From Jatrophihabitans endophyticus (GTDB lineage Bacteria; Actinomycetota; Actinomycetes; Mycobacteriales; Jatrophihabitantaceae), in assembly GCF_900129455.1 (NCBI RefSeq), contig NZ_FQVU01000002.1:744001-808000 (forward strand): DNA of 64,000 bases, in the 5' to 3' direction. Positions 1 through 18,511 of this stretch are shown one piece after another (within the stretch, counting starts at the first letter, position 1; every line of letters starts with the position of its first letter). The translations under genes and the position numbers were made by a program. The notes beneath the pieces are model-generated. The model was given only the letters and a program-made list of their open reading frames with translations. It searched no databases and was not told the DNA's origin.

Positions 1-3000
1 GCGGACGGTCCGATGACCGCCCGGCTCGTGGCGCGTCTGGCGGCCGACGGCATCACCGCCACCGAGCTGCCCGCCGATCGGCGCGCCAGCCGCGAGGACG
101 TGCGCGACGTCGTGGCCGAGCTCCGCGCCGGCGGCCAGGCCCCCGACGCCTACCTGCAGTGGATCCCGGAGACGTCGGGCGAGCCGGCCGCCGAGCTGGC
201 CGCCGGGCTGGAGCCGTTGCTGCGGGTGACCGGCGCCGTCCTGGGCGGTCGGCGCGCCGCGCCGCTGCGGGCGGTCGTCGGCTACGCCGCGACCGGCTCC
301 GGCCGGCCGTGGCAGGCCGCGCTCGGCGGCACCGTGCGCAGCCTGGCCCACGAGTCGAGCACGTTCCGCGGTGCCCTCGTCGCCGTGGACGCCGACCCCG
401 ACCGGGTTGCCGAGGAGCTCTGTGCCGAGCTGCTGGCCGGCGCCGACGAGCCGGTGCGTGAGGTCCGCCTGCGCGACGGCCGTCGCACCGTCCGCACGGT
501 GGTGCCGGTCGAGTCGGTCGAGCCGGTCGAGCCGGTCGAGCCGACCTTCGAGGGCGTCTGCCTCGTCACCGGCGGCGGCGGCCGCATCGGCCGGCACCTC
601 GCCGCGCATCTCGCGACCCGCGGCCACCGGGTGGTGCTCGTCGGGCGGAGCGCGGCCGACGCCGGGGAGTTCGCGACGCTCGGGACCGAGGACGCACCGG
701 TCCGTTACGAGCAGGCCGATGTCGCCGACGCCGAGCAGGTGGCCGCGCTCGTGCGACGGGTCCGCGAGGTCGACGGCCGGATCGGCTGCGTGGTGCACGC
801 CGCCGGGGTCACCCGCGACGGCCTGGTCGGCGTGAAGACCGAGGCGGAGGTCGCCGAGGTGCTCGCGCCGAAGACCACCGGCCTGGCCCACCTCGACGCG
901 GCCCTCGGTGACGACCGCCCCGACCTGCTGGTGCTGTTCTCCTCGCTCGCGGCATGGACCGGCAACCTCGGGCAGACCGACTACACCTTCGCCAACGCCT
1001 ACCTCGACGCCTACGCCGAGAACGCCGGCGAGGGTGTCGTGTCGATCGGCTGGCCGCTGTGGGCCGACGGCGGCATGGCCGTCGACCCGGCCACCGCGGC
1101 GCTGCACGCGCGGGTCTTCCACAGCGCCCTGCTGCCCACCGACGCAGGCCTCGACGCCTTCGACCGGGTGATCGCGTCCGGCCTGCCCTGCGTCTTCGTG
1201 AGCAGCGAGCGGCCGGCCGCCGCCACCGACGAGCCGGGCGGCGAGGTGGGCGAGCAGACCGACGCGTCCCGGAGCGCGGCGCCCGAACCGAACGCGGGGA
1301 CCGACCCGACGGCGGTGCTGCGGGCCGTCGAGGACGAGGTGCGCTCCATCGCGGCCGGCTTCCTCATGGTCGAGCCCGAGCACGTCGACCTCGACGCCGA
1401 CCTGATGGACACCGGTTTCGACTCCATCTCGCTCACCGAGCTGGTCAACGCGGTCAACGAGCGGCACGACCTGGAGCTGCTGCCCACCGTCTTGTTCGAA
1501 GCGGTCAGCCTCGGCGAGTTCGCGGCCCACCTGGTCGAGAACCACGAGGCCGCGTTCGCGGTCGAGGCGGACGCACCCGGCGGCGACGAGCCGGACACAA
1601 CCGGCAGCGACGAGACGGACGCGACCGGCGGCGACGAGCCGGCCGCGTCCGCGGCGCCGGCCGGGGGCGAGCCGTCGCCGGCCGACGCGGACGAGACCAG
1701 TATCGCGGTGGTCGGCGTCGCCGCGATGCTGCCGGGCAGCGCCGACCTCGACGAGTTCTGGCGTCACCTCGCGGCCGGGGACGATCTGACCGGGCCGCCG
1801 CCCGCGGACCGTCGCGAGCTGCACGCCGACCCGGTCACCGCCGGCGTGCGGGGCGGCTTCCTCACCGCGAACGTCCGCGCCTTCGACGCGACCCTGTTCG
1901 GCGTCTCCCCGCGCGAGGCCGCGATGATGGACCCGCAGCAGCGGTTGTTCCTGCAGACCGTCTGGCGCCTGTTCGAGGACGCCGGACACGCGCCGGAGAG
2001 CTTCGCCGGGACGCGCACCGGGTTGTTCGTGGGCATGTCCGCCTGCGACTACGACGACCTGTTGCGCGAGCACGACGTCCCGATCGAGGCGCACACCGCG
2101 AGCGGCGTCGCCAACTGCATCCTCGCGAACCGCGTCTCGCACCACTTCGACCTGCGCGGCCCGAGCGAGGCGATCGACACCGCGTGCTCGAGTTCGCTGG
2201 TCGCCCTGCACCACGCGACCCAGGCGATCGGCAGCGGCGAGTGCACGCAGGCCGTCGTCGGCGGCGTCAACCTGCTGCTGACTCCCGGCCTGTTCGCCGC
2301 CTTCACGCAGTCGGGCATGCTCAGCGCCGACGGCCGGTGCCGGACCTTCGACGCCGCCGCCGACGGCTACGGCCGGGGCGAGGGAATCGGCGCCGTCCTG
2401 CTCAAGCCGCTCGCGGCCGCCCGCCGCGACGGTGACCACGTGTACGCGATCGTGCGGGCCAGCGCCGTCAACCACGGCGGTCACGCCGCGTCGCTCACCG
2501 CACCGAACCCGCAGGCGCAGGCCGAGGTCATCGTCGACGCCTACCGCCGTGCCGGGCTCGATCCGGCGACCATCAGCTACGTCGAGGCGCACGGCACCGG
2601 CACCTCGCTCGGCGACCCCATCGAGATCGACGGGCTGCGCCGTGCCTTCGCCGAGTTCGGCGTGACCGAGGGCGACGTCGCCCTCGGCACCGTCAAGGCC
2701 GTCGCCGGGCACCTCGAGTCCGCCGCGGGCATCGCCGGCGTCGTCAAGGTGCTGCTGTGCGCGGAGCACGGCCAGCTGCCGCCGGCGGCGAACTTCACGA
2801 CCCCCAATCCCCATCTCCGGCTGGAGCGGTCGCCGTTCGCGGTCAACACCCGGCTGCGCGACTGGACGGGGGTCGAGGTCGACGGCCGCCGGGTGCGCCG
2901 CGCCGCGGTCAGCTCGTTCGGCTTCGGTGGGACGAACGCGCACGTGGTGCTCGACGCCGCGGCCGGCCGCGACGAGCGTCCGCTCGACGTCGCCGGGCCG

Positions 3001-6000
3001 TTCCTGCTCCCGCTGTCCGCGCCCACGCCCGCGGCGCTGACCGGCTACGCGAGCGTGCTCGCCGACGCTGTCGCCGACGCCGGTGCCGCACAGCTGCCCC
3101 GGATCGCCTACACGCTGCAGTGCGCTCGGGCCGAGCTGCGGCACCGCGGCTGCGTCCTCGCCGCGGACGTCGACGGCGCCGTGCGGTCGCTGCGCGCGCT
3201 CGCCGCGGGCGAGGACACCGACGGTGTGTGGACCGGTGCGGCGCGCCGCGACGCCGAGCAGCCGGCCGGCGACGACCTCGCCGACGTCGCCGCCGCGTGG
3301 GTCGGCGGCGCGGCGGTGGACTGGGCGGCCCGCTGGCCGAGCGGCACGCCGCGGGCCCGGGTCCCGAGCTTCGCCTTCGCCGACACCGAGTTCTGGTTCG
3401 ACGACACCGCGCCCGCCGCGGCCGAGACGAGCAACAGCAAGCAGCCGCAGGACGCCGCGACCGCGACGGCGGCGGCTGCGACGACCACGCCGCCGGCCGC
3501 ATCGGCCCCCGGCGTCACGGGACAGCCAGAGGAGGACGCCGTGTCCGATCCGGAGCCGGCGCGGCCCACCGCCACCGGGAAGATCACGCTCGCTCCCGCG
3601 CGTACGGCCGCGGCGACGGCACCCCCCGCCCCGGCGGCGCCCCGTGAGCCGGCGGCACCGACGACGGCCACGACCGAGGAGACGCCGACGCCTGCGACGA
3701 CGGCGGGCGGCTCCAGCGCTACGACGATCCGTGAGCTGCTCGCGCACGTGCTGGGCACCGAGGCCGCCGACGTCGACGACGACGCGCCCTTCGGCGAGCT
3801 CGGCCTCGACTCGATCTTCCGCATGGAGCTCGTCAAGCGCATCAACGACGACTACGGCGTCGAGCTCAAGGCCGACGACCTCTACGACCACGACTCGGTC
3901 GGCGCGCTGTCGGCGCACGTCGACGAGCTCGCCGCCGACGCCCCCGCCCGGCCGTCCGCCGCCGAGACCGCCGCCGACGTCGCGGCCGACACCGACGTCG
4001 CGGCCGCCGCCGATACCGCCGCCGCCGATGTCGACGTCGCGACAGCCGCCGCCGACACCGACAACGCCGCTGACAACGCCGATACCGAGGCCGACACCGG
4101 GGCCGACACCCGGGCCGACACCCGGGCCGACATCGACACGATGCAGGCCCTCATCGACGAGGCGACGGAGGGCGGGTTCGACGGCACGGCCAGCTTCACC
4201 GACAACGGCTTCAGCAGCTTCGACATGCTGCGCGTCGTGAGCACCCTCGAGGGTCGCTTCGGCCCGTTGCCCAAGACGCTGCTCTTCGACCATCCGACGC
4301 TGCCCGACCTCGTCGACGAACTGCACGCCCGCTACGGCGACACGGTGTCGCACCGGCTCAACGGCGGCGGCGCGAACGGCCACGCCGGTCGCGAGCAGTC
4401 CGAACCGCCCGCGGCGCAGCCGGCGGGGCCGCTGCCCACCGCGCACGCCAAGCGGGACCTCGGCGGCGACGCCGAGATCGCGGCCGTCGTCGCGGCGCTC
4501 GACGAGCAGTGGGCGAAGGAGGGCGGGCTCGCCGGTCGCGACATCGCGCCGATCGTCCTGCTCGGAGCCGAGCGCAAGGGCTACTTCCACGTCGGCATCG
4601 GCACGAACGCGTTGCTGGCGTGGAGTTACGTGGGGCCCGAGGACTACTTCCGCGAGCTCGCGGCCCAGCTGCTGCGCTTCGCACGCGCGAACTCGCTGCG
4701 GCCGAACTTCCTGTCCCTGCTGCCGCTCGGCGAGGTCGGCGGGGAGCGGGTGACCTGCACGCCGTTCGGTGCCGTGCAGCGCCTCGACGATCTCGCCTCG
4801 TTCACGCTGGCGGGCAACAAGATGAGTCGGCTGCGCTACATGGTGCGCCGCTTCGCGCGGGGCGCCGACGTGCGCACCGAGGAGTACCGCCCCGGCAGCG
4901 ACGCCGCGACCGACGAGCGGGTCGCGGACCTCGTCGACCGGTGGGCCGAGAACAAGGAGATGGTGAATCCCTACGTCGCCGTCGTGCGGGAGGAGATCCG
5001 CAACGGCAGCCTCCCGGAACGCCATCGGATGTTCCTGACGCACCGCGACGAGGAGCTGGCCAACGCGATCGTCCTCACCCGAATCGGCTCGGAGAACGGG
5101 TACCTGCTCGACGTCGAGTTCTACCCCACGGACGCGCCGCTGGGCGGCCTCGAGACGGCGCTCGTGCACGTCATCGAGCAGCTGGCCGGCGAGGGCGACA
5201 CCATGTTCAGCTTCGGGGCCAGCTTCGGTGTCTCGATCGCCGCGACCGACAACCCCGCGCCCGAGATCGCCGACGGCCTCGCCGAGCTCCGCTCCGTCGG
5301 CGTCTTCGGGGAGGGCAACTTCAAGTTCAAGAACAAGTTCCGTCCCACGAACGTGCCGATCTACCTGTGCCAGCCGGCCGGGGACGAGCGGACGCCGCTC
5401 GCCGACGTCATCCTGCTGATCGCCGACCCGGACCTCGGCGCCGCCGCACCCGAGCCGGCCGCCGGCCCCGAGCCGGCCGCCGCATCCGAGCCGACCGCCG
5501 CACCCGCGCCGGCACCGGCCCGACACGCCGCAGGGCCGGCGGAGCAGGACGATGCCGCGCCGACCGCCCCCACGGACGACGCGGCCGCCGTCCTCGCCGC
5601 ACACGGTTACAACCCCCTCGCGGTGGCGCACGACGACGTCGAGCTCGACCTCGGCACCGACTCGTGGGCCGAGCTCGACGGCCCCGCGATCCGCGCCCGC
5701 ACCGCGCACCTCGCCTCCCTCGCCACCAGACGTGTGCCGGATCGCTGGGACTGGCTGCCGTTCCGCCACGTCGCGCTGACCGGCTCCGGTTCGTCGGCCA
5801 CCGAGCTGCTGTGCCGCTCGCTGCGCACCCGCGGCCGCGTCCTGCACAACGCGGTCTTCCCGACCTGGGTCGCGCCCCTGGTCACCGGCGGCTTCGAACC
5901 GGTCGACATCGGCGCCGGTGACGAGCCTGGGTCGCTCGACGTGGGCCGGCTCGCGACCCTGCTCGACGAGGGCGACGTCGCCTTCGTGTGCCTGGAGCTC

Positions 6001-7662
6001 GCGGTGAACGCCGGCGGCGGGCGTCCCGTGACACCCGACGAGCTGACGGCCGTGCGCGGACTGGCCGACGACCACGACGTGCCGCTCGTGCTCGACGCGA
6101 CCCGGGTGCTCGACAACGTCCTGGCGGTCGCGGAGGACACGACGCACGACCCCGACGACAGAACCGTGTGGGACGCCGTGCGGGACACGCTCGCCGCCGG
6201 CGACGTCGTGCTGCTGAGCCTGACGAAGAACTTCGGCGTCACGACCGGCGGCCTGCTCGCGACCGACGACGACGAGCTCGGCGCCGCGATCGCGGCCGAC
6301 GCCCGAGCACGACGCCGCGACCTGTCCCTGACCGCGCGCAAGCTCGCCGCCGTGGCGCTCGCCGACACCGAGGGGGTCGTCGAGCTCGCCCGGGCCCGGC
6401 GCGCCGCGGCGCGCGCCCTGCACGAGCCGCTGCGCGCGGCGGGCCTGCCGGTGCTCGACACCGCAGGGCACTGCGTCGTCCTCGACACCACCCGGCTGCC
6501 CGCCTGCGACGGCTTCGACCACCCGCAGCTCGCCACGCTCGGCTGGATCCTCGGCCACAGCGGCGTGCGCGGCGCCCCGCACCTGTCCGACGCCGAGTCG
6601 ATGCGCGGGGCCGTCCGCTTCGCCGTCCCGTTCGGGCTCGACGTCGACCGCGCCGCAGAGGCAGGCCACGCGATCGTCGCGGCGCTGTCACGCGCGGACG
6701 GCCCGGTCGACCTCGTCCGGGTGCAGGACGGCTCGGACGCGGCGAGCGCGGCGTTCCATCCGCGCGCCGCGGTTCCCGACGACGTCGCCGACGCGCTGGC
6801 CGAACCGACCGACCCGGCCGCGGCGGGCGACAACGCCGCCGTGCTCGTCGAGCACTGCCCGCAGGTCGAGCGCCGCGTCGTCGACGCCGCCGGCGGCAGG
6901 GTCGAGGTCTTCGTCGCCGGCGACGGCCCGACGCTGCTGCTGCTGCCGCCGTTCAACATCGGCGCGGGCGTCTTCGCCGAGCAGTTCGCCGGCCTGACCG
7001 ACCGGTTCCGGCTCGTCGCGGTGCACCACCCGGGCGTCGGCGCCAGCACGGGGGTGGCCGACCTGACCTTCGACGGGCTGACGGCCATGCTGCGCGACGT
7101 CCTCGACGCCGTCGGCCCGACCGAGCCCGCGCATCTGGTGGGTGCGTCCTTCGGTGGCCTGCCCGTGCTGTCGTTCGCGCTGCGGTTCCCGGAGCGGACG
7201 GCGTCGATCACCCTGCTCGGCAGCTCGTTCAAGATCGGCAATCGCGTCGGGGAGGTCAACCGGCTGCAGGTCGTCGCCGACGAGGACTTCGACAACGTCG
7301 TCGCGGGCTCGCACTCCGAGCGCGTGCGTACGCACCGGGACCGCTGGCAGGAGCTGCTGCTGCGCTGCGAGTCCATGGACCCGCGGACCGGGCTGCGCTA
7401 TCTCGACGTCTTCGCGGCGCGTCCCGACCTGCGCGAGCGGCTGCCCGAGATCACCGCGCCCGTCCTCGTCGTCCACGGCACGCACGACACGGTGATCCCG
7501 GTCAAGACGGCGCATCTGATCCACGGGCTGATCGAGGACGCCGACTACGTCGAGCTGACCGAGGCCGGACACTTCCCCGGCCTCACCGACCCGGCGCGCG
7601 TGAACGCTGCGATCACCGCCCTGGTGACCGAGCGGACGGCGTCACCCGAGACGGTGGGGTGA
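1..7662 (+). CDS. lnmJ: AT-less polyketide synthase, LnmJ-like, KR-ACP-KS-ACP-ACP-DUF-SH-TE (5' end cut by window)
   Basis: The frame is open from base 1, so the gene starts upstream. Residues are counted from the Met codon at base 13. KR spans about 180-355 (TGGGGRIG; Ser near 310; Tyr324). ACP1 has GFDSIS at Ser471. KS spans 563-985 (DTACSSS, Cys725; EAHGTGT; GHLESAAG). ACP2 has GLDSIF at Ser1267. ACP3 is atypical, with GFSSFD at Ser1402. A DUF of about 320 residues spans 1487-1808. SH spans 1858-2235 and is tryptophanase/tyrosine phenol-lyase-like: NAGGGRPVT, DATR (Asp2028, Arg2031) and SLTKNFGVTTGGLL, whose Lys2072 aligns with the PLP lysine of tryptophanase. TE spans 2285-2549 (GASFG Ser2379, Asp2492, His2520). 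There is no AT domain, so loading must be in trans. Known family: in leinamycin LnmJ the SH domain is a cysteine lyase that leaves a thiol on the chain. The family assignment is by motif and order; the product is inferred. Confidence 0.93.
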   Translation, partial: ADGPMTARLVARLAADGITATELPADRRASREDVRDVVAELRAGGQAPDAYLQWIPETSGEPAAELAAGLEPLLRVTGAVLGGRRAAPLRAVVGYAATGSGRPWQAALGGTVRSLAHESSTFRGALVAVDADPDRVAEELCAELLAGADEPVREVRLRDGRRTVRTVVPVESVEPVEPVEPTFEGVCLVTGGGGRIGRHLAAHLATRGHRVVLVGRSAADAGEFATLGTEDAPVRYEQADVADAEQVAALVRRVREVDGRIGCVVHAAGVTRDGLVGVKTEAEVAEVLAPKTTGLAHLDAALGDDRPDLLVLFSSLAAWTGNLGQTDYTFANAYLDAYAENAGEGVVSIGWPLWADGGMAVDPATAALHARVFHSALLPTDAGLDAFDRVIASGLPCVFVSSERPAAATDEPGGEVGEQTDASRSAAPEPNAGTDPTAVLRAVEDEVRSIAAGFLMVEPEHVDLDADLMDTGFDSISLTELVNAVNERHDLELLPTVLFEAVSLGEFAAHLVENHEAAFAVEADAPGGDEPDTTGSDETDATGGDEPAASAAPAGGEPSPADADETSIAVVGVAAMLPGSADLDEFWRHLAAGDDLTGPPPADRRELHADPVTAGVRGGFLTANVRAFDATLFGVSPREAAMMDPQQRLFLQTVWRLFEDAGHAPESFAGTRTGLFVGMSACDYDDLLREHDVPIEAHTASGVANCILANRVSHHFDLRGPSEAIDTACSSSLVALHHATQAIGSGECTQAVVGGVNLLLTPGLFAAFTQSGMLSADGRCRTFDAAADGYGRGEGIGAVLLKPLAAARRDGDHVYAIVRASAVNHGGHAASLTAPNPQAQAEVIVDAYRRAGLDPATISYVEAHGTGTSLGDPIEIDGLRRAFAEFGVTEGDVALGTVKAVAGHLESAAGIAGVVKVLLCAEHGQLPPAANFTTPNPHLRLERSPFAVNTRLRDWTGVEVDGRRVRRAAVSSFGFGGTNAHVVLDAAAGRDERPLDVAGPFLLPLSAPTPAALTGYASVLADAVADAGAAQLPRIAYTLQCARAELRHRGCVLAADVDGAVRSLRALAAGEDTDGVWTGAARRDAEQPAGDDLADVAAAWVGGAAVDWAARWPSGTPRARVPSFAFADTEFWFDDTAPAAAETSNSKQPQDAATATAAAATTTPPAASAPGVTGQPEEDAVSDPEPARPTATGKITLAPARTAAATAPPAPAAPREPAAPTTATTEETPTPATTAGGSSATTIRELLAHVLGTEAADVDDDAPFGELGLDSIFRMELVKRINDDYGVELKADDLYDHDSVGALSAHVDELAADAPARPSAAETAADVAADTDVAAAADTAAADVDVATAAADTDNAADNADTEADTGADTRADTRADIDTMQALIDEATEGGFDGTASFTDNGFSSFDMLRVVSTLEGRFGPLPKTLLFDHPTLPDLVDELHARYGDTVSHRLNGGGANGHAGREQSEPPAAQPAGPLPTAHAKRDLGGDAEIAAVVAALDEQWAKEGGLAGRDIAPIVLLGAERKGYFHVGIGTNALLAWSYVGPEDYFRELAAQLLRFARANSLRPNFLSLLPLGEVGGERVTCTPFGAVQRLDDLASFTLAGNKMSRLRYMVRRFARGADVRTEEYRPGSDAATDERVADLVDRWAENKEMVNPYVAVVREEIRNGSLPERHRMFLTHRDEELANAIVLTRIGSENGYLLDVEFYPTDAPLGGLETALVHVIEQLAGEGDTMFSFGASFGVSIAATDNPAPEIADGLAELRSVGVFGEGNFKFKNKFRPTNVPIYLCQPAGDERTPLADVILLIADPDLGAAAPEPAAGPEPAAASEPTAAPAPAPARHAAGPAEQDDAAPTAPTDDAAAVLAAHGYNPLAVAHDDVELDLGTDSWAELDGPAIRARTAHLASLATRRVPDRWDWLPFRHVALTGSGSSATELLCRSLRTRGRVLHNAVFPTWVAPLVTGGFEPVDIGAGDEPGSLDVGRLATLLDEGDVAFVCLELAVNAGGGRPVTPDELTAVRGLADDHDVPLVLDATRVLDNVLAVAEDTTHDPDDRTVWDAVRDTLAAGDVVLLSLTKNFGVTTGGLLATDDDELGAAIAADARARRRDLSLTARKLAAVALADTEGVVELARARRAAARALHEPLRAAGLPVLDTAGHCVVLDTTRLPACDGFDHPQLATLGWILGHSGVRGAPHLSDAESMRGAVRFAVPFGLDVDRAAEAGHAIVAALSRADGPVDLVRVQDGSDAASAAFHPRAAVPDDVADALAEPTDPAAAGDNAAVLVEHCPQVERRVVDAAGGRVEVFVAGDGPTLLLLPPFNIGAGVFAEQFAGLTDRFRLVAVHHPGVGASTGVADLTFDGLTAMLRDVLDAVGPTEPAHLVGASFGGLPVLSFALRFPERTASITLLGSSFKIGNRVGEVNRLQVVADEDFDNVVAGSHSERVRTHRDRWQELLLRCESMDPRTGLRYLDVFAARPDLRERLPEITAPVLVVHGTHDTVIPVKTAHLIHGLIEDADYVELTEAGHFPGLTDPARVNAAITALVTERTASPETVG

Positions 7663-7665
7663 GCC

Positions 7666-8610
7666 GTGACCGTCCTGGCGGGGCGACCGCCCCTGGCCGC
7701 GTCCGGCACCGGCTGGCTCGAACGGACGCAGGTCGTCACCCCGGCGATGTGCGGGCACAACTCGCTGTTCGTCGGCCAGCTCGGCGACTGGACGTGGGAC
7801 GCCGTCGGCGCGACGTGCGGGCTCGATCCGTACACGGCGGTCGACGACGCGGGCCGGCCCGCCTACCTGTCCTTCGCCTACTTCCGGGTCGCGTCGGCCA
7901 CCGGGCTGACCACCGAGTCGATCGGCTTCGGTGACCGGTTGGCGGTGCGCTCCAAGGTGCTGACGTGCGGCCGGTCCTCCGTGCTCGCCCTGCACCAGGT
8001 GCAGCGCGAACCGACGACCGGGTCCGCACCCGCCCGGCTGGCGGACTTCTTCGCGCGCACCGCGCCGCACACCATCCACGCCGAGACCTTCAACCGGTGG
8101 ATCTCCCGCTCGCGCGCGGACACGAACCACGACCTGCGCACCGCGGCGCCCGCCGGGTTCGACGGTGGCTCGCTCGACCCCGTGCCCGACGAGTTCAGTC
8201 CGCGGGTGCCGTACACGCAGGTGCGCCGACACGGCTCGTTCCGCTCCCCCGACGACCCGGCGGCGGACGTCCACGTCGCGCTGCAGTACCCGGTCGAGGC
8301 GAGCCGGGACCTCAACGGCGCCGGGCTGCTGTACTTCGCGTCCTACTTCTCGATCGTCGACTGGGCGATCGTGCGGCTGTGGCGCGAGGCCGGCCGGGAC
8401 GCGAGTCGCTTCCTCGCCCGCGAGGTGCTCGACCGGCAGGTCTGCTTCCTCGGCAACGCCGACGCCGACGACGTCCTCGACGTCGCGGTGTCCTCGTCGG
8501 CCGACGGCGAGGACGAGGTCGTCGACGTCGTCCTGCGTCGCGCCGGCTCCGGCGCGGTGCTCGCCGCCGCACGCCAACGGATCCGCGACCACGAAGGAGG
8601 ACCGGCATGA
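7666..8610 (+). CDS. lnmK: LnmK-like bifunctional acyltransferase/decarboxylase
   Basis: This 314-residue protein begins with GTG three bases after the PKS stop and ends in an ATGA overlap with an ACP gene. Length, place (directly after an LnmJ-like PKS and before an ACP and an HMG-CoA-synthase-like gene) and motifs such as CGHNSLFVGQLGDW and AYLSFAYFRV fit LnmK, a double-hot-dog enzyme. LnmK loads methylmalonyl-CoA onto a discrete ACP and decarboxylates it to propionyl-ACP, the donor for beta-alkylation. LnmK uses a tyrosine nucleophile (Tyr62 as I recall); Tyr67 or Tyr72 here could be its equivalent, but I could not align them. The substrate here is inferred, and malonyl-CoA is not excluded. 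Confidence 0.85.
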   Translation: MTVLAGRPPLAASGTGWLERTQVVTPAMCGHNSLFVGQLGDWTWDAVGATCGLDPYTAVDDAGRPAYLSFAYFRVASATGLTTESIGFGDRLAVRSKVLTCGRSSVLALHQVQREPTTGSAPARLADFFARTAPHTIHAETFNRWISRSRADTNHDLRTAAPAGFDGGSLDPVPDEFSPRVPYTQVRRHGSFRSPDDPAADVHVALQYPVEASRDLNGAGLLYFASYFSIVDWAIVRLWREAGRDASRFLAREVLDRQVCFLGNADADDVLDVAVSSSADGEDEVVDVVLRRAGSGAVLAAARQRIRDHEGGPA

Positions 8611-8849
8611 CCGACGTTCGCGAGGTCGTGACGGCGACGGTACGGGAGATCCTGCCCGACGTCGGCGTCGACGAGATCCGCCCCGACCGCCACCTGCGCG
8701 ATCTGGGCGCCGACTCGGTCGACCGCGTCGAGATCATCGGCGCGGTGCTGGACCGGCTGTCGCTCGACGAGCCGCTGTCCAGCTTCAGCGACCTGCCCGA
8801 CATCGAGGCGATGGTCGACCTCCTCGAGCGGCTGCGGGCGACGGCGTGA
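8607..8849 (+). CDS. lnmL: Discrete acyl carrier protein (LnmL-like)
   Basis: An 80-residue ACP whose phosphopantetheine site is GADSVDRVEI (Ser39 by count). The ATG overlaps the stop of the preceding decarboxylase gene, with GGAGG eight bases upstream. Its own stop overlaps the GTG of the next gene, so translation is probably coupled along the block. The DSVDRVE context is typical of the stand-alone ACPs of HMG-CoA-synthase cassettes rather than of in-module ACPs. In leinamycin the equivalent ACP carries the propionyl donor made by LnmK. That role is inferred here from gene order. Confidence 0.9.
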   Translation: MTDVREVVTATVREILPDVGVDEIRPDRHLRDLGADSVDRVEIIGAVLDRLSLDEPLSSFSDLPDIEAMVDLLERLRATA

Positions 8850-10102
8850 ACCCGCCCGCCGTGGGCATCGAGGCCCTCGACGTCTACTGCGGCATCGCAC
8901 GCATCGGGGTCGCCGAGCTGTTCGCCGGGCGTGGCCTGGACACAGACCGGCAGCAGAACCTGATGATGACCGAGAAGTCGGTCGGCCTGCCGTGCGAGGA
9001 CCCGGTGACCAACGCCGTGAACGCGGCCCGGCCGCTGGTCGACGCGCTCGCTCCCGAGGAGCGTGACCGCATCGAGGTCCTGGTGACCTCGACCGAGTCC
9101 GGTGTCGACTTCAGCAAGTCGCTCGCGTCCTACGTGCACGAGCACCTGGGCCTGTCGCGGCGGTGCCGGCTCGTCGAGGTCAAGCAGGCCTGCTACGGCG
9201 CGACCGCGGCGGTGCAGCTGGCGACGGGCTATCTCGCCTCCGGGATCTCGCCGGACGCGAAGATCCTCGTCGTCGCGACGGACGTGCCGCTGGTCGACGA
9301 GCACGCCGAGTACACCGAGCCGGCCATGGGCTTCGGCGCGGCAGCGGTCCTGCTCGGGACGCGCCCGAGGATCCTGACGATGGATCTCGGCGCGTTCGGC
9401 ACCCACAGCTACGAGACGTTGGACTCCGCTCGACCGGGTCCGACCTTCGACATCGCCGACTCGGACCGCTCGCTGTTCGCGTATCTCGACTGCCTGGCGA
9501 ACTCGTTCCGGGGCTACCGCGACCGCGTCGAGGGTGCCGACTTCGCCGCGACGTTCGACTACCTCGCGATGCACACGCCGTTCGCCGGCATGGTCCGGGC
9601 GGCGCACCGCAAGATGATGCGCGACTTCGCCCGGGACGCCGACCAGGAGGAGGACTTCGAGCGGCGTCTGGCGCCGGCACTGCGCTACCCGAGCCGGGTC
9701 GGCAACCTCTGCTCGGGCTCGGTCTATCTCGCGCTGGCGAGCGTCATCGACAACGCCGCGGTCGACGACGGCGCGCGCGTCGGCCTCTACTCCTACGGAT
9801 CGGGCTGCTCGTCGGAGTTCTTCAGCGGCGTCGTCGACGGCACGTCGCGCACGACGCTCGCCGCGCAGGGGATCGGCGCGGCGCTCGACGCCCGCGTCGA
9901 GGTGCCGTTCGACGACTACGTCGACCTGCTGGCCCGGAGCAGGGACTGCCTCGTGCCGGAGCGCGATCGCAGCGTCGATCCGGACGAGTACGCCCGCTGG
10001 TACGACGCCCGCGGCGCGACCCGCGACCTGCTGGTGTGGACGGGCACCAAGGACTACCACCGCACGTACGACTGGATCACGTCACGAGGAGCCACGACAT
10101 GA
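8846..10102 (+). CDS. lnmM: HMG-CoA synthase-like beta-branching enzyme (LnmM-like)
   Basis: 418 residues from a GTG start overlapping the ACP stop. The HMG-CoA synthase triad is visible: Glu in TSTESGVDFSK, Cys in EVKQACYGAT, and His in YLAMHTPF; the late SGSVYLALAS segment also fits. In trans-AT polyketide pathways this enzyme adds an acyl-ACP donor to the beta-keto group of the PKS-bound chain, starting a beta-alkyl branch. It sits between two discrete ACP genes, which fits a beta-branching cassette rather than mevalonate synthesis. The dehydratase/decarboxylase partner (an enoyl-CoA-hydratase homologue, LnmF in leinamycin) is not in this window and may lie upstream. Confidence 0.93.
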   Translation: MNPPAVGIEALDVYCGIARIGVAELFAGRGLDTDRQQNLMMTEKSVGLPCEDPVTNAVNAARPLVDALAPEERDRIEVLVTSTESGVDFSKSLASYVHEHLGLSRRCRLVEVKQACYGATAAVQLATGYLASGISPDAKILVVATDVPLVDEHAEYTEPAMGFGAAAVLLGTRPRILTMDLGAFGTHSYETLDSARPGPTFDIADSDRSLFAYLDCLANSFRGYRDRVEGADFAATFDYLAMHTPFAGMVRAAHRKMMRDFARDADQEEDFERRLAPALRYPSRVGNLCSGSVYLALASVIDNAAVDDGARVGLYSYGSGCSSEFFSGVVDGTSRTTLAAQGIGAALDARVEVPFDDYVDLLARSRDCLVPERDRSVDPDEYARWYDARGATRDLLVWTGTKDYHRTYDWITSRGATT

Positions 10103-10362
10103 CTGCCGGAACCACGACACCAGACAGGGCACGGGTCTTCGAGGTGGTCCGCGAGGTGACCGCCAAGGTGCTGCCGGACGTGGACACGTCGGGCATGACC
10201 ATCGACGGGACCCTGAGCGACCTCGGCGCCAACAGCATCGACCGCGCCGACATCGCGACCATGGCGATGATGGAGCTCGGCGTGAAGGTGCCGGCCAGGG
10301 AGTTCGCGGGCGTCAAGGACATCGGCACGCTCGTCGACGTGCTGCTGGCGCAATTGCCATGA
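10099..10362 (+). CDS. Second discrete acyl carrier protein of the beta-branching cassette
   Basis: An 87-residue ACP with the attachment motif GANSIDRAD. It starts with ATG overlapping the preceding stop (ATGA), preceded by a GAGGAG-like site, and its stop overlaps the start of the ketosynthase gene. The GANSIDR signature is that of donor ACPs paired with decarboxylative ketosynthases in HMG-CoA-synthase cassettes. Its coupling to the Ser-type KS suggests it carries malonyl groups to be decarboxylated to acetyl. Having two donor-type ACPs in one cassette is unusual for the leinamycin type. Confidence 0.88.
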   Translation: MTAGTTTPDRARVFEVVREVTAKVLPDVDTSGMTIDGTLSDLGANSIDRADIATMAMMELGVKVPAREFAGVKDIGTLVDVLLAQLP

Positions 10363-11621
10363 CCGCGCCGGGCGTCGTCACCGGAGTGGGTGCGGTCTGC
10401 TCGGTCGCGGGCGACGTCGCCGCCTTCGAGAAGGCGTTACGGGCCGGTACGTCGGGCTTTCGTGCCGTGTCGGACGACACCGCCGAGGACGGCGTGCGGC
10501 TGCTCGCGCCACTGGCCGACTTCGACTTCGAGACGGCGCTCGAGAACACCGCGACGCTCTCGCCCGAACGGCGCGACGCCGTGCGCCGCGTCGGGCTGCG
10601 CGCACCGCTCCCGGTCCAGGCGACGCTCTCGGCCTGCGCGCAGGCCTGGGCCGACGCCGGCCTGGACGCGGTCCCGACGCGGCCGGACCGCGTCGCGATC
10701 CTCGTCGGCGGCAGCAACCTCACGCAGCGCTACGTGTCGGACAACCGCGAGGTGTACGAGGAGGAGCCCGCGTACCTGCCCGCGCGGTACGCGCTGCGGG
10801 CCCAGGACACCGACTTCGTCGCCGCGATCAGCGAGGCGTTCCACGTCCTCGGTGAGGGGTACACGGTGGGGGCGTCCTCCTCCAGCGGGAACGCGGCGGT
10901 GATCCTGGCGTCCCGGCTGCTCGCCGTCGGCGCCGCGGACGTGTGCCTCGCCGTCGGCCCGATGACCCAGTTCGAGCCGGCGATGCTCGCCGCGCTGGAC
11001 AAGCTCGGCGTGCTCGCCGAGGCCGACGGCGAGCCCGGTGAGCAGGACGTCGGCCCGCGCCCCTTCGACCGGCGCCGCGACGGTTTCGTGCCCGGCGAGG
11101 GGGCCGGCTGCGTGATCCTCGAGTCCCCGCGCTCGGCCCGCATGCGCGGCGTCGACACGATCGTCGAGCTCGGTGGCGTGGCGCAGGCGATGGACGGCAC
11201 GACTTTGCCCGACCCCAACGTGCACGGCGAGGCCCGGGCGATGGCCAAGGCGCTCGACGAGGCCGGCATCCCCGTCGACCGCGTCGACTACGTGAACGCG
11301 CACGCGACGGCCACACCCGCCGGCGACGACACCGAGGCCGAGGCCGTCCGCAGCCTGTTGCGGGCCGGCCGGCCGTGGGTCAACGCGACCAAGGGCCTGA
11401 TCGGCCACTGCCTGAGCGCGGCCGGCGTCATCGAGGCGGTCGCGACGGTGATCCAGATGCGGCACGGGTTCGTGCACCCGAATCCCGCGCTGGATCGCCC
11501 GATCGACCGCTCGCTGCGGCTGGTCGGGGCCGAGGCGGTGACCGCCGAGCTGCACTGCGCGTTGAGCAACAGCTTCGGCTTCGGCGGCTTCAACAGCAGC
11601 ATCGTGCTCCTCCGCGACTGA
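10359..11621 (+). CDS. Stand-alone decarboxylative ketosynthase with Ser in place of the active-site Cys
   Basis: A 420-residue FabF-fold protein overlapping the ACP stop. The position of the usual nucleophilic Cys reads GASSSSGNAAV, with no cysteine. The two catalytic His contexts remain (NAHATATPAGDDTEAEA and KGLIGHCLSAAG), and the C-terminal glycine-rich FGFGGFNSS is intact. The Cys-to-Ser form with an ASxSGN motif is known for ketosynthases of beta-branching cassettes (PksF/CurC type) that decarboxylate malonyl-ACP but do not condense. Translational coupling to the preceding ACP supports that pairing. An alternative is a chain-length-factor-like scaffold with no activity. Confidence 0.88.
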   Translation: MTAPGVVTGVGAVCSVAGDVAAFEKALRAGTSGFRAVSDDTAEDGVRLLAPLADFDFETALENTATLSPERRDAVRRVGLRAPLPVQATLSACAQAWADAGLDAVPTRPDRVAILVGGSNLTQRYVSDNREVYEEEPAYLPARYALRAQDTDFVAAISEAFHVLGEGYTVGASSSSGNAAVILASRLLAVGAADVCLAVGPMTQFEPAMLAALDKLGVLAEADGEPGEQDVGPRPFDRRRDGFVPGEGAGCVILESPRSARMRGVDTIVELGGVAQAMDGTTLPDPNVHGEARAMAKALDEAGIPVDRVDYVNAHATATPAGDDTEAEAVRSLLRAGRPWVNATKGLIGHCLSAAGVIEAVATVIQMRHGFVHPNPALDRPIDRSLRLVGAEAVTAELHCALSNSFGFGGFNSSIVLLRD

Positions 11622-11716: not shown

Positions 11717-13129
11717 ATGACCACTCAACTGGAACCAGCCAGGCCCGGGGACACCCCCCGCGCCGTGAGCGCCGTGTGCGCGGAACGCTTCGATGCGCTC
11801 TTCGACACGTGGCGGGCGATCGACCGGGGCGAGGGTGTCGACGTCGCCAGGGGCGCGGTGGCGGGCGTGGACACCGTCGCTTTCGCGACCGACCCGGGCA
11901 CACAGGGCGGCGCGCTCGGCGCGGACGGCTGTCGCGCCATCGTGGCGGCGACGGAACTCGCTGTCGCGCAAGGGATTCCGGTCGTCGGCATCTGGCGATC
12001 CGGGGGCGCCCGGCTTGGGGAGGGCGTCGACTCGCTCGACGGCATGGCGCGGGTGTTCGCCGTCAAGAGCACCGCCAGCGGCCGGGTCCTGCAGCTGTCG
12101 CTCGTCGTCGGCCCCTCGGCCGGCGGCGCGGCCTACGGCCCGGCCCTCACCGACGTCGTCGTCATGGGCCCCGAGGGCAGGATCTTCGTCACCGGCCCCG
12201 ACGTGGTGCGCAACGCCACCGGTGAGGACGTCGACATGGAGCGTCTCGGCGGTCCGGACACGCAGGGGCGCAGCGGTGTCGCGCACGTGGTGTGCGAGAC
12301 CGACGACGAGGCGGTCCGACGGTCCCGCGCGATCATCGAGCTCACCTCGCGGTTGGGCTCGGCGCACGACGACGACGAGGAGCGCGACGACCCGGGCGAG
12401 TTGCTGCCCGGATCGGGGCGCCGGGCCTACGACGTCGTGCCGATCGTGCGGGCGCTGCTCGACGGTGGCGAGTACCTCGAGTTCCAGGCGGGCTGGGCGC
12501 GCAACGTCACCACCGGGCTGGGTCGGCTCGGCGGGCGCACCGTGGGCGTGGTCGCGACCAATCCGTTGCACCTGGCGGGCTGCCTGGACGCGTCGAGCGG
12601 CGACAAGTCCGGGCGCTTCGTGCAGTGGTGCGACGCCCTGGGCATCGCCCTGGTGTTCCTGGTCGACGTCCCGGGCTACCTCCCCGGCCTCGGCCAGGAG
12701 GAGGCAGGCGTCGTCCGCCGCGGCGCGAAGCTGTTGCACGCCTACGCCACGGCATCGGTGCCCCGCCTCACCGTCGTCCTGCGCAAGGCCTTCGGCGGCG
12801 CCTACATCGCGATGGGCAGTCGTGGCCTCGGCGCCGACCACGTCCTCGCCTGGCCGGAGGCCCGGATCGGGGTCATGGGCGCGGAGGCCGCCGTCGAGAT
12901 CCTGCACCGCCGCGAGCTCGTGGCGATCGCGGACGAGCAGGACCGTGCGAACCGCCTCGCCGAGCTGGCCGACGACTACCTCACCGGTGTGGGCGGCCTC
13001 GAGCGTGCGCTCGAGACCGGTGTCGTGGACGCCGTCGTCGCGCCGGCGGCGACCCGCCGGCACCTGATCGCCGCGCTGCGCGACAGCGGCGCCCCCCACG
13101 GCAGCGACCGACCCAATCCGCCCCTGTGA
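11717..13129 (+). CDS. Acyl-CoA carboxylase carboxyltransferase (beta) subunit
   Basis: 470 residues from the ATG at 11717. Two crotonase-fold halves are visible: the N-half has GIWRSGGARLGEG and PSAGGAAYGPALTD, the C-half has VDVPGYLPGLGQE and KAFGGAYIAMGS. These match biotin-dependent carboxyltransferases of the acetyl/propionyl-CoA carboxylase family, which make malonyl- or methylmalonyl-CoA. A 95-base gap separates it from the KS gene, so it may have its own promoter. In this cluster it would supply extender or branch units. No biotin carboxylase/carrier (alpha) subunit is in the window, so it would need a partner from elsewhere in the genome. Confidence 0.9.
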   Translation: MTTQLEPARPGDTPRAVSAVCAERFDALFDTWRAIDRGEGVDVARGAVAGVDTVAFATDPGTQGGALGADGCRAIVAATELAVAQGIPVVGIWRSGGARLGEGVDSLDGMARVFAVKSTASGRVLQLSLVVGPSAGGAAYGPALTDVVVMGPEGRIFVTGPDVVRNATGEDVDMERLGGPDTQGRSGVAHVVCETDDEAVRRSRAIIELTSRLGSAHDDDEERDDPGELLPGSGRRAYDVVPIVRALLDGGEYLEFQAGWARNVTTGLGRLGGRTVGVVATNPLHLAGCLDASSGDKSGRFVQWCDALGIALVFLVDVPGYLPGLGQEEAGVVRRGAKLLHAYATASVPRLTVVLRKAFGGAYIAMGSRGLGADHVLAWPEARIGVMGAEAAVEILHRRELVAIADEQDRANRLAELADDYLTGVGGLERALETGVVDAVVAPAATRRHLIAALRDSGAPHGSDRPNPPL

Positions 13130-13166: not shown

Positions 13167-14276
13167 ATGACCGAACACATCGAGGTCGCCATCGTCGGCG
13201 GCGGACAGAGCGGCCTCGTGGCCGGCTACTACCTCCAGCGCGCCGACATCCCGTACGTGATCCTCGATGCCGGTCCCGAGGCCGGTCACTCGTGGCGGCG
13301 CCGGTGGGACTCCCTGGAGCTGTTCACGATCGCCCGGTACTGCGAGCTGCCCGGGATGCGGTTCCCCGGTGGGTGGAACCGCTTCCCCGACAAGGACGAG
13401 CTCGCCGACTACCTGGAGATGTACCACCGAACATTCCGCCAGCCGGTCCGCTGGAACACCGCGGTCACCATGGTCGACCGAGCGGCCGACGGCGGCTACG
13501 TCCTGCACACGAGCGCGGGTGACATCACCGCCACGCAGGTCGTCCTCGCCACCGGGGCCTACCGGAACACGTTCACGCCGTCGATCGCCGCGGGCCTGTC
13601 CGACGACGTCGTGCAGGTCCACACCGGCGACTACCGCAATCCGTCGACGATCCCGGGCGGGCGGGTCGTCGTCGTCGGTGCGGCCAATTCCGGCGCGCAG
13701 ATCGCCGTCGACCTGCACGAGACGCACGACGTGCTGCTGTCGCAGGGATCGCCCATCCCGCACGGCCCCCGCAAGTTCCTCGGCATCGGCCTGCACTGGT
13801 GGGGCGACAAGCTCGGCATCATCGCCAAGCCGCTGCTCGGCGAGCGCGACCGCATCCACAAGAAGACGATCCTCGTCGGCAAGAGCCTGCAGAAGATCGC
13901 CAAGGAGACCGGCGTGCAGCTGCGCGACCGCACGGTCGCGTGCGAGGGCAGGACCGTCACCTTCGAGGACGGCACGTCGGCGGAGGTCGACGCGGTGGTC
14001 TGGGCGACGGGCTTCCGGCCCGACTACACGAAGTGGGTGTCCCTCCCGATCTTCGGTGAGGACGGCTTCCCCCGGCACGTCCGGGGGGTCGTCGACGAGG
14101 CTCCGGGCCTCTACTTCCTCGGCATGCAGTGCCAGTACACCTACGGCTCGGGGCTCATCTGGTGGGTGAAAGAGGACGCCGAGTACCTCGTCGACAAGAT
14201 CCGCGGGTACGAGCCGACGGCGCCGGACCCCTCGGCTCCCCTGCCCACAGTTGAGCAGACGGCAGCGACCGGCTGA
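13167..14276 (+). CDS. Flavin-dependent monooxygenase (FMO/CzcO-like)
   Basis: 369 residues, ATG preceded by GACGAGGAG. Two Rossmann motifs are visible: VGGGQSG near residue 11 for FAD and VVVVGAANSG near 170 for NAD(P)H. Between them lies an FMO-type signature (VHTGDYRNP), and the ATGFRPDY motif precedes the C-terminus. This arrangement fits group B flavoprotein monooxygenases of the CzcO/YczA type, which oxygenate carbon or heteroatoms using NADPH. It lies in the same transcriptional direction as the polyketide genes and the P450, so a tailoring role (possibly sulfur or carbon oxidation) is plausible but unproven. Confidence 0.88.
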   Translation: MTEHIEVAIVGGGQSGLVAGYYLQRADIPYVILDAGPEAGHSWRRRWDSLELFTIARYCELPGMRFPGGWNRFPDKDELADYLEMYHRTFRQPVRWNTAVTMVDRAADGGYVLHTSAGDITATQVVLATGAYRNTFTPSIAAGLSDDVVQVHTGDYRNPSTIPGGRVVVVGAANSGAQIAVDLHETHDVLLSQGSPIPHGPRKFLGIGLHWWGDKLGIIAKPLLGERDRIHKKTILVGKSLQKIAKETGVQLRDRTVACEGRTVTFEDGTSAEVDAVVWATGFRPDYTKWVSLPIFGEDGFPRHVRGVVDEAPGLYFLGMQCQYTYGSGLIWWVKEDAEYLVDKIRGYEPTAPDPSAPLPTVEQTAATG

Positions 14277-15533: not shown

Positions 15534-16457
15534 ATGAGTGATGCCACCACCACGTTCGCGATCCCGCCGGCCCAGGACCAGACCTCGGTCGCCGACGAGG
15601 ACCTGCTCACGTCGGCCAACGCCGGCGTCGTCGTCGAGCGCACCGCCCAGCTGAAGAACGGATTTCACGCGGAAGGGCGCCAATTCGCCCGCGGCCTCGC
15701 CGAGCTGATCAACACGAAGATGCAGGGCACCGCCACGGTCTTCGTGTACGAGGAGACGTTCGGCATCAAGGACAAGATGCACTTCTTCATCCACCTGAGC
15801 TCGCTCGCCGCGTACGAGGTCATGGTGGCGATGGGCAGCAAGGACGACGAGTACCGCGCGCAGCTCAGTCCGGCCGAGCAGGAGAAGGCGGCCAGCTGGG
15901 ACAAGATCTTCGTCGACGGCGGCCTGCAGGAGACCGTCCTGCTGCCGCAGTTCTGGGGGATGTACGGCACCAAGGTCGACGGCGAGAAGGAACGCGACTC
16001 CGACGTCTACAAGGACGAGAAGCCGGTCGTCGGAATCCCCGGCGCGCGCGAGCAGGTCGCCCTGCCGATCGAGCAGATCCTGCACTCGGGCAACTCCGGC
16101 ATCGTCATGCACCGCACCGCACAGCTCGAGTACGACTACCGCTCGGAGGGGCGACAGTTCGCGCGCGAGGTCGCCGAGTCGATCAACGAGAACCTGCCCG
16201 GCGAGGCCACCGTGTTCGTCTACGAGGAGGCCTTCGGCACCGCGGACCGGCTGCACTGGCTGATCCACCTGAAGTCGATCACGTCCTACTACCGCTTGCT
16301 CGAACTGCACGTCCGCAACGAGCAGGTGCGCGAGCTGTACTTCCAGGAGAAGATCGCGCCGGAACGGGGCGGTGGCACCTGGGCCAAGATGTTCGTCCCC
16401 GGGAGCATGGTCGACGTCGCGCTGACGCCCCAGCACTGGGGCATGTACGCCACCTGA
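15534..16457 (+). CDS. Protein of unknown function with two tandem homologous domains
   Basis: 307 residues. I do not recognise a characterised family. The protein is an internal duplication: residues about 25-150 and 180-305 share RTAQL, EGRQFAR, ATVFVYEE, FG..D..H(F/W)..IHL and PQ(F/H)WGMY in the same order. Each half resembles a small antibiotic-biosynthesis-monooxygenase or dabb-like ferredoxin fold in size, but no catalytic residues can be named. It has no signal peptide or membrane segment. The ATG follows a GATGAGGAAA site 39 bases after the P450 stop, which suggests it belongs to the biosynthetic operon. Homologues may exist in other leinamycin-type clusters (a DUF6039 or LnmX-like identity is possible but unverified). 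Confidence 0.7.
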   Translation: MSDATTTFAIPPAQDQTSVADEDLLTSANAGVVVERTAQLKNGFHAEGRQFARGLAELINTKMQGTATVFVYEETFGIKDKMHFFIHLSSLAAYEVMVAMGSKDDEYRAQLSPAEQEKAASWDKIFVDGGLQETVLLPQFWGMYGTKVDGEKERDSDVYKDEKPVVGIPGAREQVALPIEQILHSGNSGIVMHRTAQLEYDYRSEGRQFAREVAESINENLPGEATVFVYEEAFGTADRLHWLIHLKSITSYYRLLELHVRNEQVRELYFQEKIAPERGGGTWAKMFVPGSMVDVALTPQHWGMYAT

Positions 16458-18418: not shown

Positions 18419-18428
18419 AGAGATCGGG

Positions 18429-18511
18429 TGGGCAAGGGGGGAGTTGAACCCCCACGTCCTTTCGGACACACGGACCTGAACCGTGCGCGTCTGCCATTCC
18501 GCCACTTGCCC
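18429..18511 (-). tRNA. tRNA-Leu(CAG)
   Basis: On the minus strand the 83-base sequence folds as a class II tRNA. The acceptor stem pairs GGGCAAG with CTTGCCC, and the discriminator is A. The anticodon stem CACGG/CCGTG encloses the loop TTCAGGT with anticodon CAG (plus-strand 18476-18478). A long variable arm TCC-GAAA-GGA follows, then a T arm with GTTCAACTC. The 3' CCA is not encoded. Confidence 0.96.

Follow-up and report, generated by a model that had tools for sequence, protein, structure and literature searches.

The gene cassette at positions 7666–11621 of the window, a 64,000-nucleotide stretch of the Jatrophihabitans endophyticus genome, encodes an LnmK-type enzyme and a ketosynthase (KS) with a Cys-to-Ser change, each accompanied by an acyl carrier protein (ACP). 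The cassette is very probably the downstream end of a hybrid nonribosomal peptide synthetase (NRPS)/acyltransferase (AT)-less polyketide synthase (PKS) cluster of the leinamycin family and the largimycin kind, with two β-branches and two dedicated donor systems. The genes present, the order of the domains, the residues at the active sites, co-occurrence in related genomes and the presence of two lineages of HMG synthase (HMGS) carry this reading. The pairing of both donor systems is real but ordinary, as the arrangement has already been described. Positions without a prefix are those of the window, and positions with the prefix C2 follow the source contig, on which the window is C2:744001–808000.

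Five genes make up the cassette, all on the forward strand, in the order LnmK, ACP, HMGS, ACP and Ser-type KS. All five frames are open, all four of the junctions between them are four-base overlaps (ATGA in three cases and GTGA in one), and the start of LnmK lies 3 bases after the stop of the preceding PKS gene. The tight packing by four-base overlaps and the presence of both enzymes with their ACPs had been noted in a preliminary description of this DNA, and its gene names are borne out by family models and alignments.

LnmK (7666–8610, GTG start) matches NCBIfam TIGR04098 (E 1.2e-82, 277 bits against a cut-off of 100), PF18238, and the LnmK entries of the PDB (4hzn, 4hzo, 4hzp and 6x7l, E about 1e-73). 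By hand count on the alignment, its Tyr67 lines up with residue 62 of the 6x7l chain, a Tyr that we take to be the catalytic residue of LnmK. This Tyr is kept in 26 of 26 aligned LnmK sequences (the copy at locus L042 is outside the set), and the N-terminal motif is kept as well. The absence of the presumed catalytic Tyr, which the preliminary description had named as grounds for dropping its proposal, did not occur. The score above the family cut-off and the aligned Tyr mark the protein as a putative LnmK-type bifunctional AT/decarboxylase (AT/DC), predicted to convert methylmalonyl-CoA to propionyl-ACP. The ACP that follows (ACP 1, 8607–8849, PF00550) occupies the LnmL/LrgL position and is the predicted propionyl carrier; it is 47–63% identical to the ACP after LnmK in all 15 of the leinamycin-type loci described below. 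HMGS 1 (8846–10102), in the LnmM/LrgM1 position, matches PDB 8s81 and the CurD and PksG chains with E 1e-105 or better, and is predicted to act at module 8; in a tree of HMGSs it falls with the LnmK-linked ones of the 15 loci (100/100).

The second ACP (ACP 2, 10099–10362, PF00550) has 77.4 bits to NF005502 (E 7e-22), slightly below the cut-off of 79. It is assumed to be the counterpart of LrgA, and is the predicted acetyl carrier for a second HMGS (HMGS 2). The KS (10359–11621), the assumed counterpart of LrgD, has 453 bits to the polyketide KS model NF005490 (cut-off 445), with Ser175 where FabF carries its Cys; the two active-site His are retained. The Ser and both His are present in all 15 distinct KS sequences compared, including that of the window (duplicates counted once). 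With the Cys replaced and both His kept, the protein has the sequence features of the decarboxylating KS of HMG-CoA synthase (HCS) cassettes, and is a candidate for that function.

The preliminary description counted a single HMGS. That is correct inside the window and incorrect genome-wide, the count having come out at one because the window boundary cut off HMGS 2 upstream. HMGS 2 (C2:719421–720671) is 50% identical to HMGS 1 and ends 23.3 kb before the window start. It is immediately followed by an enoyl-CoA hydratase (ECH)-family gene with an open frame (ECH1), and a further ECH domain (ECH2, C2:734509–735165) is found inside the giant PKS, in an open frame of 7298 amino acids (aa). HMGS 2, ECH1 and the in-module ECH domain all lie 9–25 kb upstream of the window on one contig. 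The same upstream region contains a discrete AT gene (C2:721416–723659), NRPS C, A and PCP domains, nitroreductase-family domains, and PKS pieces with no AT domain match. Further upstream are an AMP ligase, a SyrB2-like halogenase (PDB SyrB2 2fct, E 1.2e-145, with the DWHQADTFANASG stretch identical) and an abhydrolase. The NRPS-linked KS in this region (L005, within 2–3691) retains the active-site Cys and has VECAAAGAT at the position of the His motif. We take the usual His-bearing KS motif there to be VEAHGTGT, and the domain is probably non-elongating.

The cassette directly follows the end of the giant PKS. Positions 1–7662 (+) encode the C-terminal portion of this 7281-aa AT-less protein; the whole gene is C2:729817–751662 and starts 14.2 kb before the window, so that the listed open reading frame (ORF) start at 13 is internal. 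The portion in the window contains the module 8 KS domain (1699–2796 +, Pfam ketoacyl-synt N and C, residues 563–928 of the protein), a DUF domain (LPG_synthase_C, 4630–5370 +, PF09924, E 1.9e-15), an SH domain that is a pyridoxal phosphate-dependent beta-eliminating lyase, judged by its position to be of the thiocysteine-lyase type (5758–6459 +, PF01212, E 1.4e-22), and a thioesterase (TE) domain (6928–7593 +, PF00561). The terminal module thus reads KS-ACP-ACP-DUF-SH-TE, from the Pfam domain order ketoacyl synthase, PP-binding, LPG_synthase_C, beta-eliminating lyase and alpha/beta hydrolase. A terminal module of this composition is described for all leinamycin-type systems (PMC7618002). Both this module and the lack of AT domains within the PKS point to a leinamycin-family hybrid NRPS/AT-less PKS cluster, with a discrete AT predicted to act in trans. 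By gene content and tree, the HMGS cassette genes are at the place, and of the lineage, expected for module 8.

The preliminary description held that known pathways use either LnmK or the Ser-type KS. Largimycin biosynthesis contradicts this: LrgK/L/M1 provide a propionyl-derived C3 branch and LrgA/D/M2 an acetyl-derived C9 branch, and the mutants ΔlrgKLM1 and ΔlrgM2 support one HMGS per branch (PMC9396626). The largimycin genes described there include LrgS/LrgH/LrgY for loading, LrgM2, LrgF (ECH1), LrgG (AT), an ECH2 domain in module 5 of LrgJ, tandem ACPs in module 8, LrgK/L/M1, LrgA and LrgD (PMC9396626). The Jatrophihabitans cluster likewise contains sequences predicted to be a second HMGS, a second donor ACP, a decarboxylating KS and ECH1, an ECH2 domain within a PKS module, and a discrete loading set with a SyrB2-like halogenase, which would place it in the largimycin type.

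A pattern scan of a genome contig collection with an LnmK alignment, a method that misses divergent copies, gave 26 loci. Fifteen of these were called leinamycin-type, having SH-TE (whole or in part) together with LnmK, ACP and HMGS. The DUF-SH-TE stretch of the window matched nearly end to end in 11 of the 15 (41–51% identity), and partially or in pieces in the other 4. HMGS 1 is 56–70% identical to the HMGSs of these loci, which is ordinary for the family. In 8 of the 15 (L027, L028, L029, L031, L032, L036, L038 and L042), an ACP and a Ser-type KS directly follow the HMGS as in the window, which gives the same five-gene order. A second search, of 397 genomes of the same taxonomic order, found LnmK in 15 besides the source genome. 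Ten of these are leinamycin-type in the stretch examined, four of them already among the first 15 loci, and in two of the six additional ones (G555 and G767) the ACP and KS again directly follow the HMGS. With largimycin published as having both systems, and with these loci, the idea that the pairing is new was rejected. The preliminary description had conceded that its proposal would fall if the pairing were already common in characterised leinamycin-type clusters, and this is largely so, with one characterised pathway and 8 of 15 loci of unchecked characterisation status.

Among the remaining 11 of the 26 loci, six have LnmK beside a pair of discrete KS-type genes with an AT-type gene (one in Rhodococcus, four in Salinispora and one in Kineosporia), four are from Planctomycetota and one from Acidimicrobiia; no HMGS match was found in the stretches examined of these 11. 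The six discrete-KS loci are probably type II PKS loci, family models having been run on two of them (L023 and L020). The four Planctomycetota loci (L037, L039, L040 and L041) are four contigs of one metagenome-assembled genome, OFTM357, each with an LnmK-like gene and KS-like matches nearby and with no HMGS match in the stretch examined. The other five genomes of the second search comprise one discrete-KS locus (G618) and four loci (L123–L126, in G622, G591, G772 and G522) where LnmK-like genes have no HMGS match in the ca. 6.5 kb read around them. Among 396 genomes sampled from the phylum, the source genome alone scored above the cut-off of the LnmK family model, with seven weak matches elsewhere, and no LnmK match was found in the 23 other genomes of the same genus or family searched, many of which are incomplete.

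Co-occurrence of the genes for a second branch was searched in the 15 leinamycin-type genomes and the source genome, with limits of E 1e-50 or better for the Ser-type KS and E 1e-30 or better for the ECH domain. A second HMGS, a Ser-type KS and an ECH domain were found together in the source genome and in 11 of the 15. The second HMGSs are 58–65% identical to HMGS 2 over the longest match, and all 12 genomes that have one also have a Ser-type KS. In 3 of the 15 (one Pseudomonas and two Actinokineospora), none of the three was found at the set limits. The Pseudomonas locus, L035 of Pseudomonas H3(2019), is a non-actinobacterial example of SH-TE, LnmK, ACP and HMGS with no match to the second-branch set. 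A relative of the halogenase is also present in 11 of the 15 genomes, though not in the identical 11: Streptomyces sp. NBC_01669 (G446) has the second-branch set without the halogenase, and Actinokineospora spheciospongiae (G448) has the halogenase without the set.

In a tree of 27 HMGS proteins (16 LnmK-linked and 11 in second position, with L047 of G445 and the split G435 copy left out), the LnmK-linked and the second-position HMGSs are separated by a branch with 100/100 support, and the source genome has one protein on each side. Leinamycin-type HMGSs are reported to cluster by the module that they serve, with WsmS near LnmM, and in vitro the weishanmycin enzymes WsmD and WsmS are each specific for their own acceptor ACP, neither replacing the other (PMC7618002). 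The two-lineage tree agrees with both the module-wise grouping and the non-exchangeability of WsmD and WsmS.

Several observations weigh against a two-branch, two-donor cluster, or against parts of the evidence for it. In one of the 15 genomes, Streptomyces sp. CB01635 (G441), weaker copies of the second-branch genes share one contig, and LnmK is on another. The second HMGS of Streptomyces sp. Tue 6430 (G435) is split over two frames. In G439 and G445, the pieces are on different contigs of draft genomes, and membership of a single cluster is not shown there. The Ser-type KS is away from the K-L-M genes in 3 of the 11 second-branch genomes (a Saccharothrix, a Micromonospora and Streptomyces sp. 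NBC_01669), and adjacency by itself is therefore no functional evidence. Finally, outside this cluster the lineage of the window LnmK occurs next to type II PKS-like genes, so that a different donor ACP partner is conceivable.

The window LnmK shares 58% identity with the six LnmKs that neighbour discrete KS genes, as against 39–47% with the LnmKs of 14 leinamycin-type loci out of 15; that of L042 matched in pieces (41–62%) and was left out of the LnmK trees, which have 26 and 37 sequences. In both trees, the window LnmK groups with the LnmKs beside discrete-KS, type II PKS-like genes (loci L020–L025 and L115) with 100/100 support. A single clade of leinamycin-type LnmKs that includes the window protein was rejected – forcing it into that clade, which was defined after viewing the tree, costs 120 log-likelihood units in the 26-sequence tree and 144 in the 37-sequence tree. 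In the larger tree, the leinamycin-type LnmKs do not form one clade even without the window LnmK, and LnmKs of other contexts fall among them. The next neighbour of the whole set in this tree is the leinamycin-type LnmK of G767, with modest support (89/72), a position that would fit starter-unit enzymes arising from a leinamycin-type LnmK. The neighbouring HMGS 1 is an ordinary leinamycin-type protein, although the lineage of LnmK is odd. We regard it as an even call whether the window LnmK and the type II PKS-side LnmKs of Salinispora, Rhodococcus and Kineosporia make up one lineage, so that, among β-branching systems, this cluster would stand closest to the lomaiviticin-type starter enzyme and would document the passage of a donor-making enzyme between β-branching and chain starting; such an enzyme might have a changed partner or substrate range, cross-feeding of the two donor ACPs included. 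The lineage is a concrete handle on how LnmK-type enzymes shift between β-branching and starter-unit roles.

The substrates, module assignments and branch chemistry proposed for the two arms are modelled on the characterised largimycin and weishanmycin pathways. In the first arm, LnmK would load methylmalonyl on ACP 1 and decarboxylate it to propionyl-ACP 1, and HMGS 1 would transfer the propionyl unit to the β-ketone on the first ACP of module 8. ECH1 would dehydrate the adduct, and DUF-SH would then carry out thiocysteine addition and cleavage at the carboxylated C3 branch. In the second arm, the trans-acting AT would load malonyl on ACP 2, the Ser-type KS would decarboxylate it to acetyl-ACP 2, and HMGS 2 would act at the module bearing the ECH domain, where ECH1 and then the ECH2 domain would give an exomethylene at the C9 position. 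One ECH1 would thus be common to both arms.

Three possibilities had been raised in the preliminary description: a choice of branch unit, a second branch, and one redundant arm. The second branch is the best reading, while the other two became unnecessary because HMGS 2 lies upstream. A choice of donor, in which HMGS 1 at one and the same module accepts either propionyl-ACP 1 or acetyl-ACP 2 and gives mixed branch units, is quite unlikely. The two donor ACPs do flank HMGS 1 in a tightly packed operon, and in weishanmycin WsmS and the other HMGS both draw on one acetyl donor ACP, WsmT (PMC7618002), which shows that acetyl-ACP can be used by an LnmM-like enzyme. Donor choice is weakened by an HMGS 2 of its own lineage in the cluster, by the Ser-type KS in all 12 genomes with an HMGS at least 58% identical to HMGS 2, and by largimycin, where each HMGS is reported to have a donor ACP of its own (PMC7618002); some small chance is left to it by weishanmycin, whose two HMGSs share an acetyl donor. 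As the principal explanation it was rejected, with HMGS 2, ECH1 and the ECH domain upstream.

It is very improbable that either arm is a leftover, redundant or in decay, and this too was rejected. The five open frames with their four-base overlaps, the retained LnmK Tyr and N-terminal motif, the retained His of the KS, and the presence of ECH1, the ECH domain and HMGS 2, all open and all needed by the acetyl arm, argue against decay, for which there is nothing direct beyond an LnmK lineage unusual in this type of cluster. Least probable of all, and hardly credible here, is a role for LnmK and ACP 1 in making a propionyl starter, as in type II PKSs of the lomaiviticin type, instead of a β-branch donor. 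The window LnmK groups at 100/100 with LnmKs beside a discrete KS-type gene pair plus an AT gene, among them those of Salinispora, and Lom62 of Salinispora pacifica is reported to convert methylmalonyl-CoA to the propionyl starter of lomaiviticin (PMC7247197). Yet no discrete KS pair is found among the ORFs annotated from C2:694001 to window position 16457, and right after module 8 LnmK runs on into an LnmL-like ACP and an LnmM-like HMGS, as in the 15 leinamycin-type loci, while the AMP ligase and halogenase on the loading side fit an amino acid starter. Two branches, each with its own donor system, remain the reading that we favor.

Downstream of the cassette are several other genes on the forward strand. 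An AccD6-like acyl-CoA carboxylase carboxyltransferase subunit (11717–13129, PDB AccD6 4fb8 E 1.8e-134, PF01039) starts 95 bases downstream of the Ser-type KS, and could possibly furnish the cassette with malonyl- or methylmalonyl-CoA extender. Three probable cluster members follow: a flavin-dependent oxidoreductase-like tailoring gene (13167–14276), with a 64% identical homologue downstream of the same cassette in L029; a cytochrome P450 (14292–15494, PF00067), with homologues in L029 (66%) and L043 (65%); and a DUF6039 protein (15534–16457, PF19505, E 8.7e-133). A second DUF6039-like protein (L005, about 4450–5411), 36% identical to the window copy, lies directly upstream of HMGS 2, in the place reported for lrgE, and L036 and L043, both of them leinamycin-type, have DUF6039 homologues too. 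A tRNA-Leu (CAG) gene lies at 18427–18511 (-), ca. 2 kb past the last probable cluster gene; no other tRNA was found in the window.

The cluster adds a complete-looking, contiguous two-branch cluster of the largimycin type from an actinobacterium, and with two donor ACPs and two HMGS lineages it is a clean comparative case for the matching of β-branch donors and acceptors. Largimycin of Streptomyces argillaceus is alike in having lrgKLM1 downstream of the module 8 PKS, as well as a separate donor ACP, a decarboxylating KS, a second HMGS, ECH1, an in-module ECH2 and a halogenase in a discrete loading set; the AMP ligase, halogenase and abhydrolase upstream in Jatrophihabitans fit the three LrgS/LrgH/LrgY loading functions (PMC9396626). 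This comparison was made by description rather than by sequence, with one-to-one lrg counterparts assumed from annotation. Two features may set the Jatrophihabitans cluster apart from largimycin: the ACP and Ser-type KS directly follow K-L-M in one overlapping operon, and LnmK comes from the lineage whose other members neighbour type II PKS-like genes.

The leinamycin cluster (lnm) has the same KS-ACP-ACP-DUF-SH-TE module 8 (PMC7618002), and LnmK/L/M likewise serve its C3 branch (PMC9396626). The Jatrophihabitans cluster has an acetyl arm and a second HMGS besides, neither of which, to our knowledge, is present in lnm. Weishanmycin (wsm) is alike in having two HMGS lineages (WsmS with LnmM, and WsmD), an ECH2 domain in module 5, an exomethylene branch and a carboxylated module 8 branch, and differs in that its two branches share a single donor ACP (WsmT) and a single KS0, and its cassette as described there includes no named AT/DC (PMC7618002), whereas two donor ACPs and an LnmK are present here. 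Myxovirescin biosynthesis likewise has two HMGSs, TaC and TaF, for two different branches (PMC7618002). It differs in that TaC is able to complement TaF. Its PKS is presumably of a different family. In Salinispora and others, the closest relatives of the window LnmK (58% identical) have discrete KS-type genes as neighbours, and the Salinispora loci found would be lomaiviticin clusters, judging from genus and gene content. Lom62 makes the starter unit for a type II PKS, whereas the window LnmK sits with an HMGS in a β-branching cassette.

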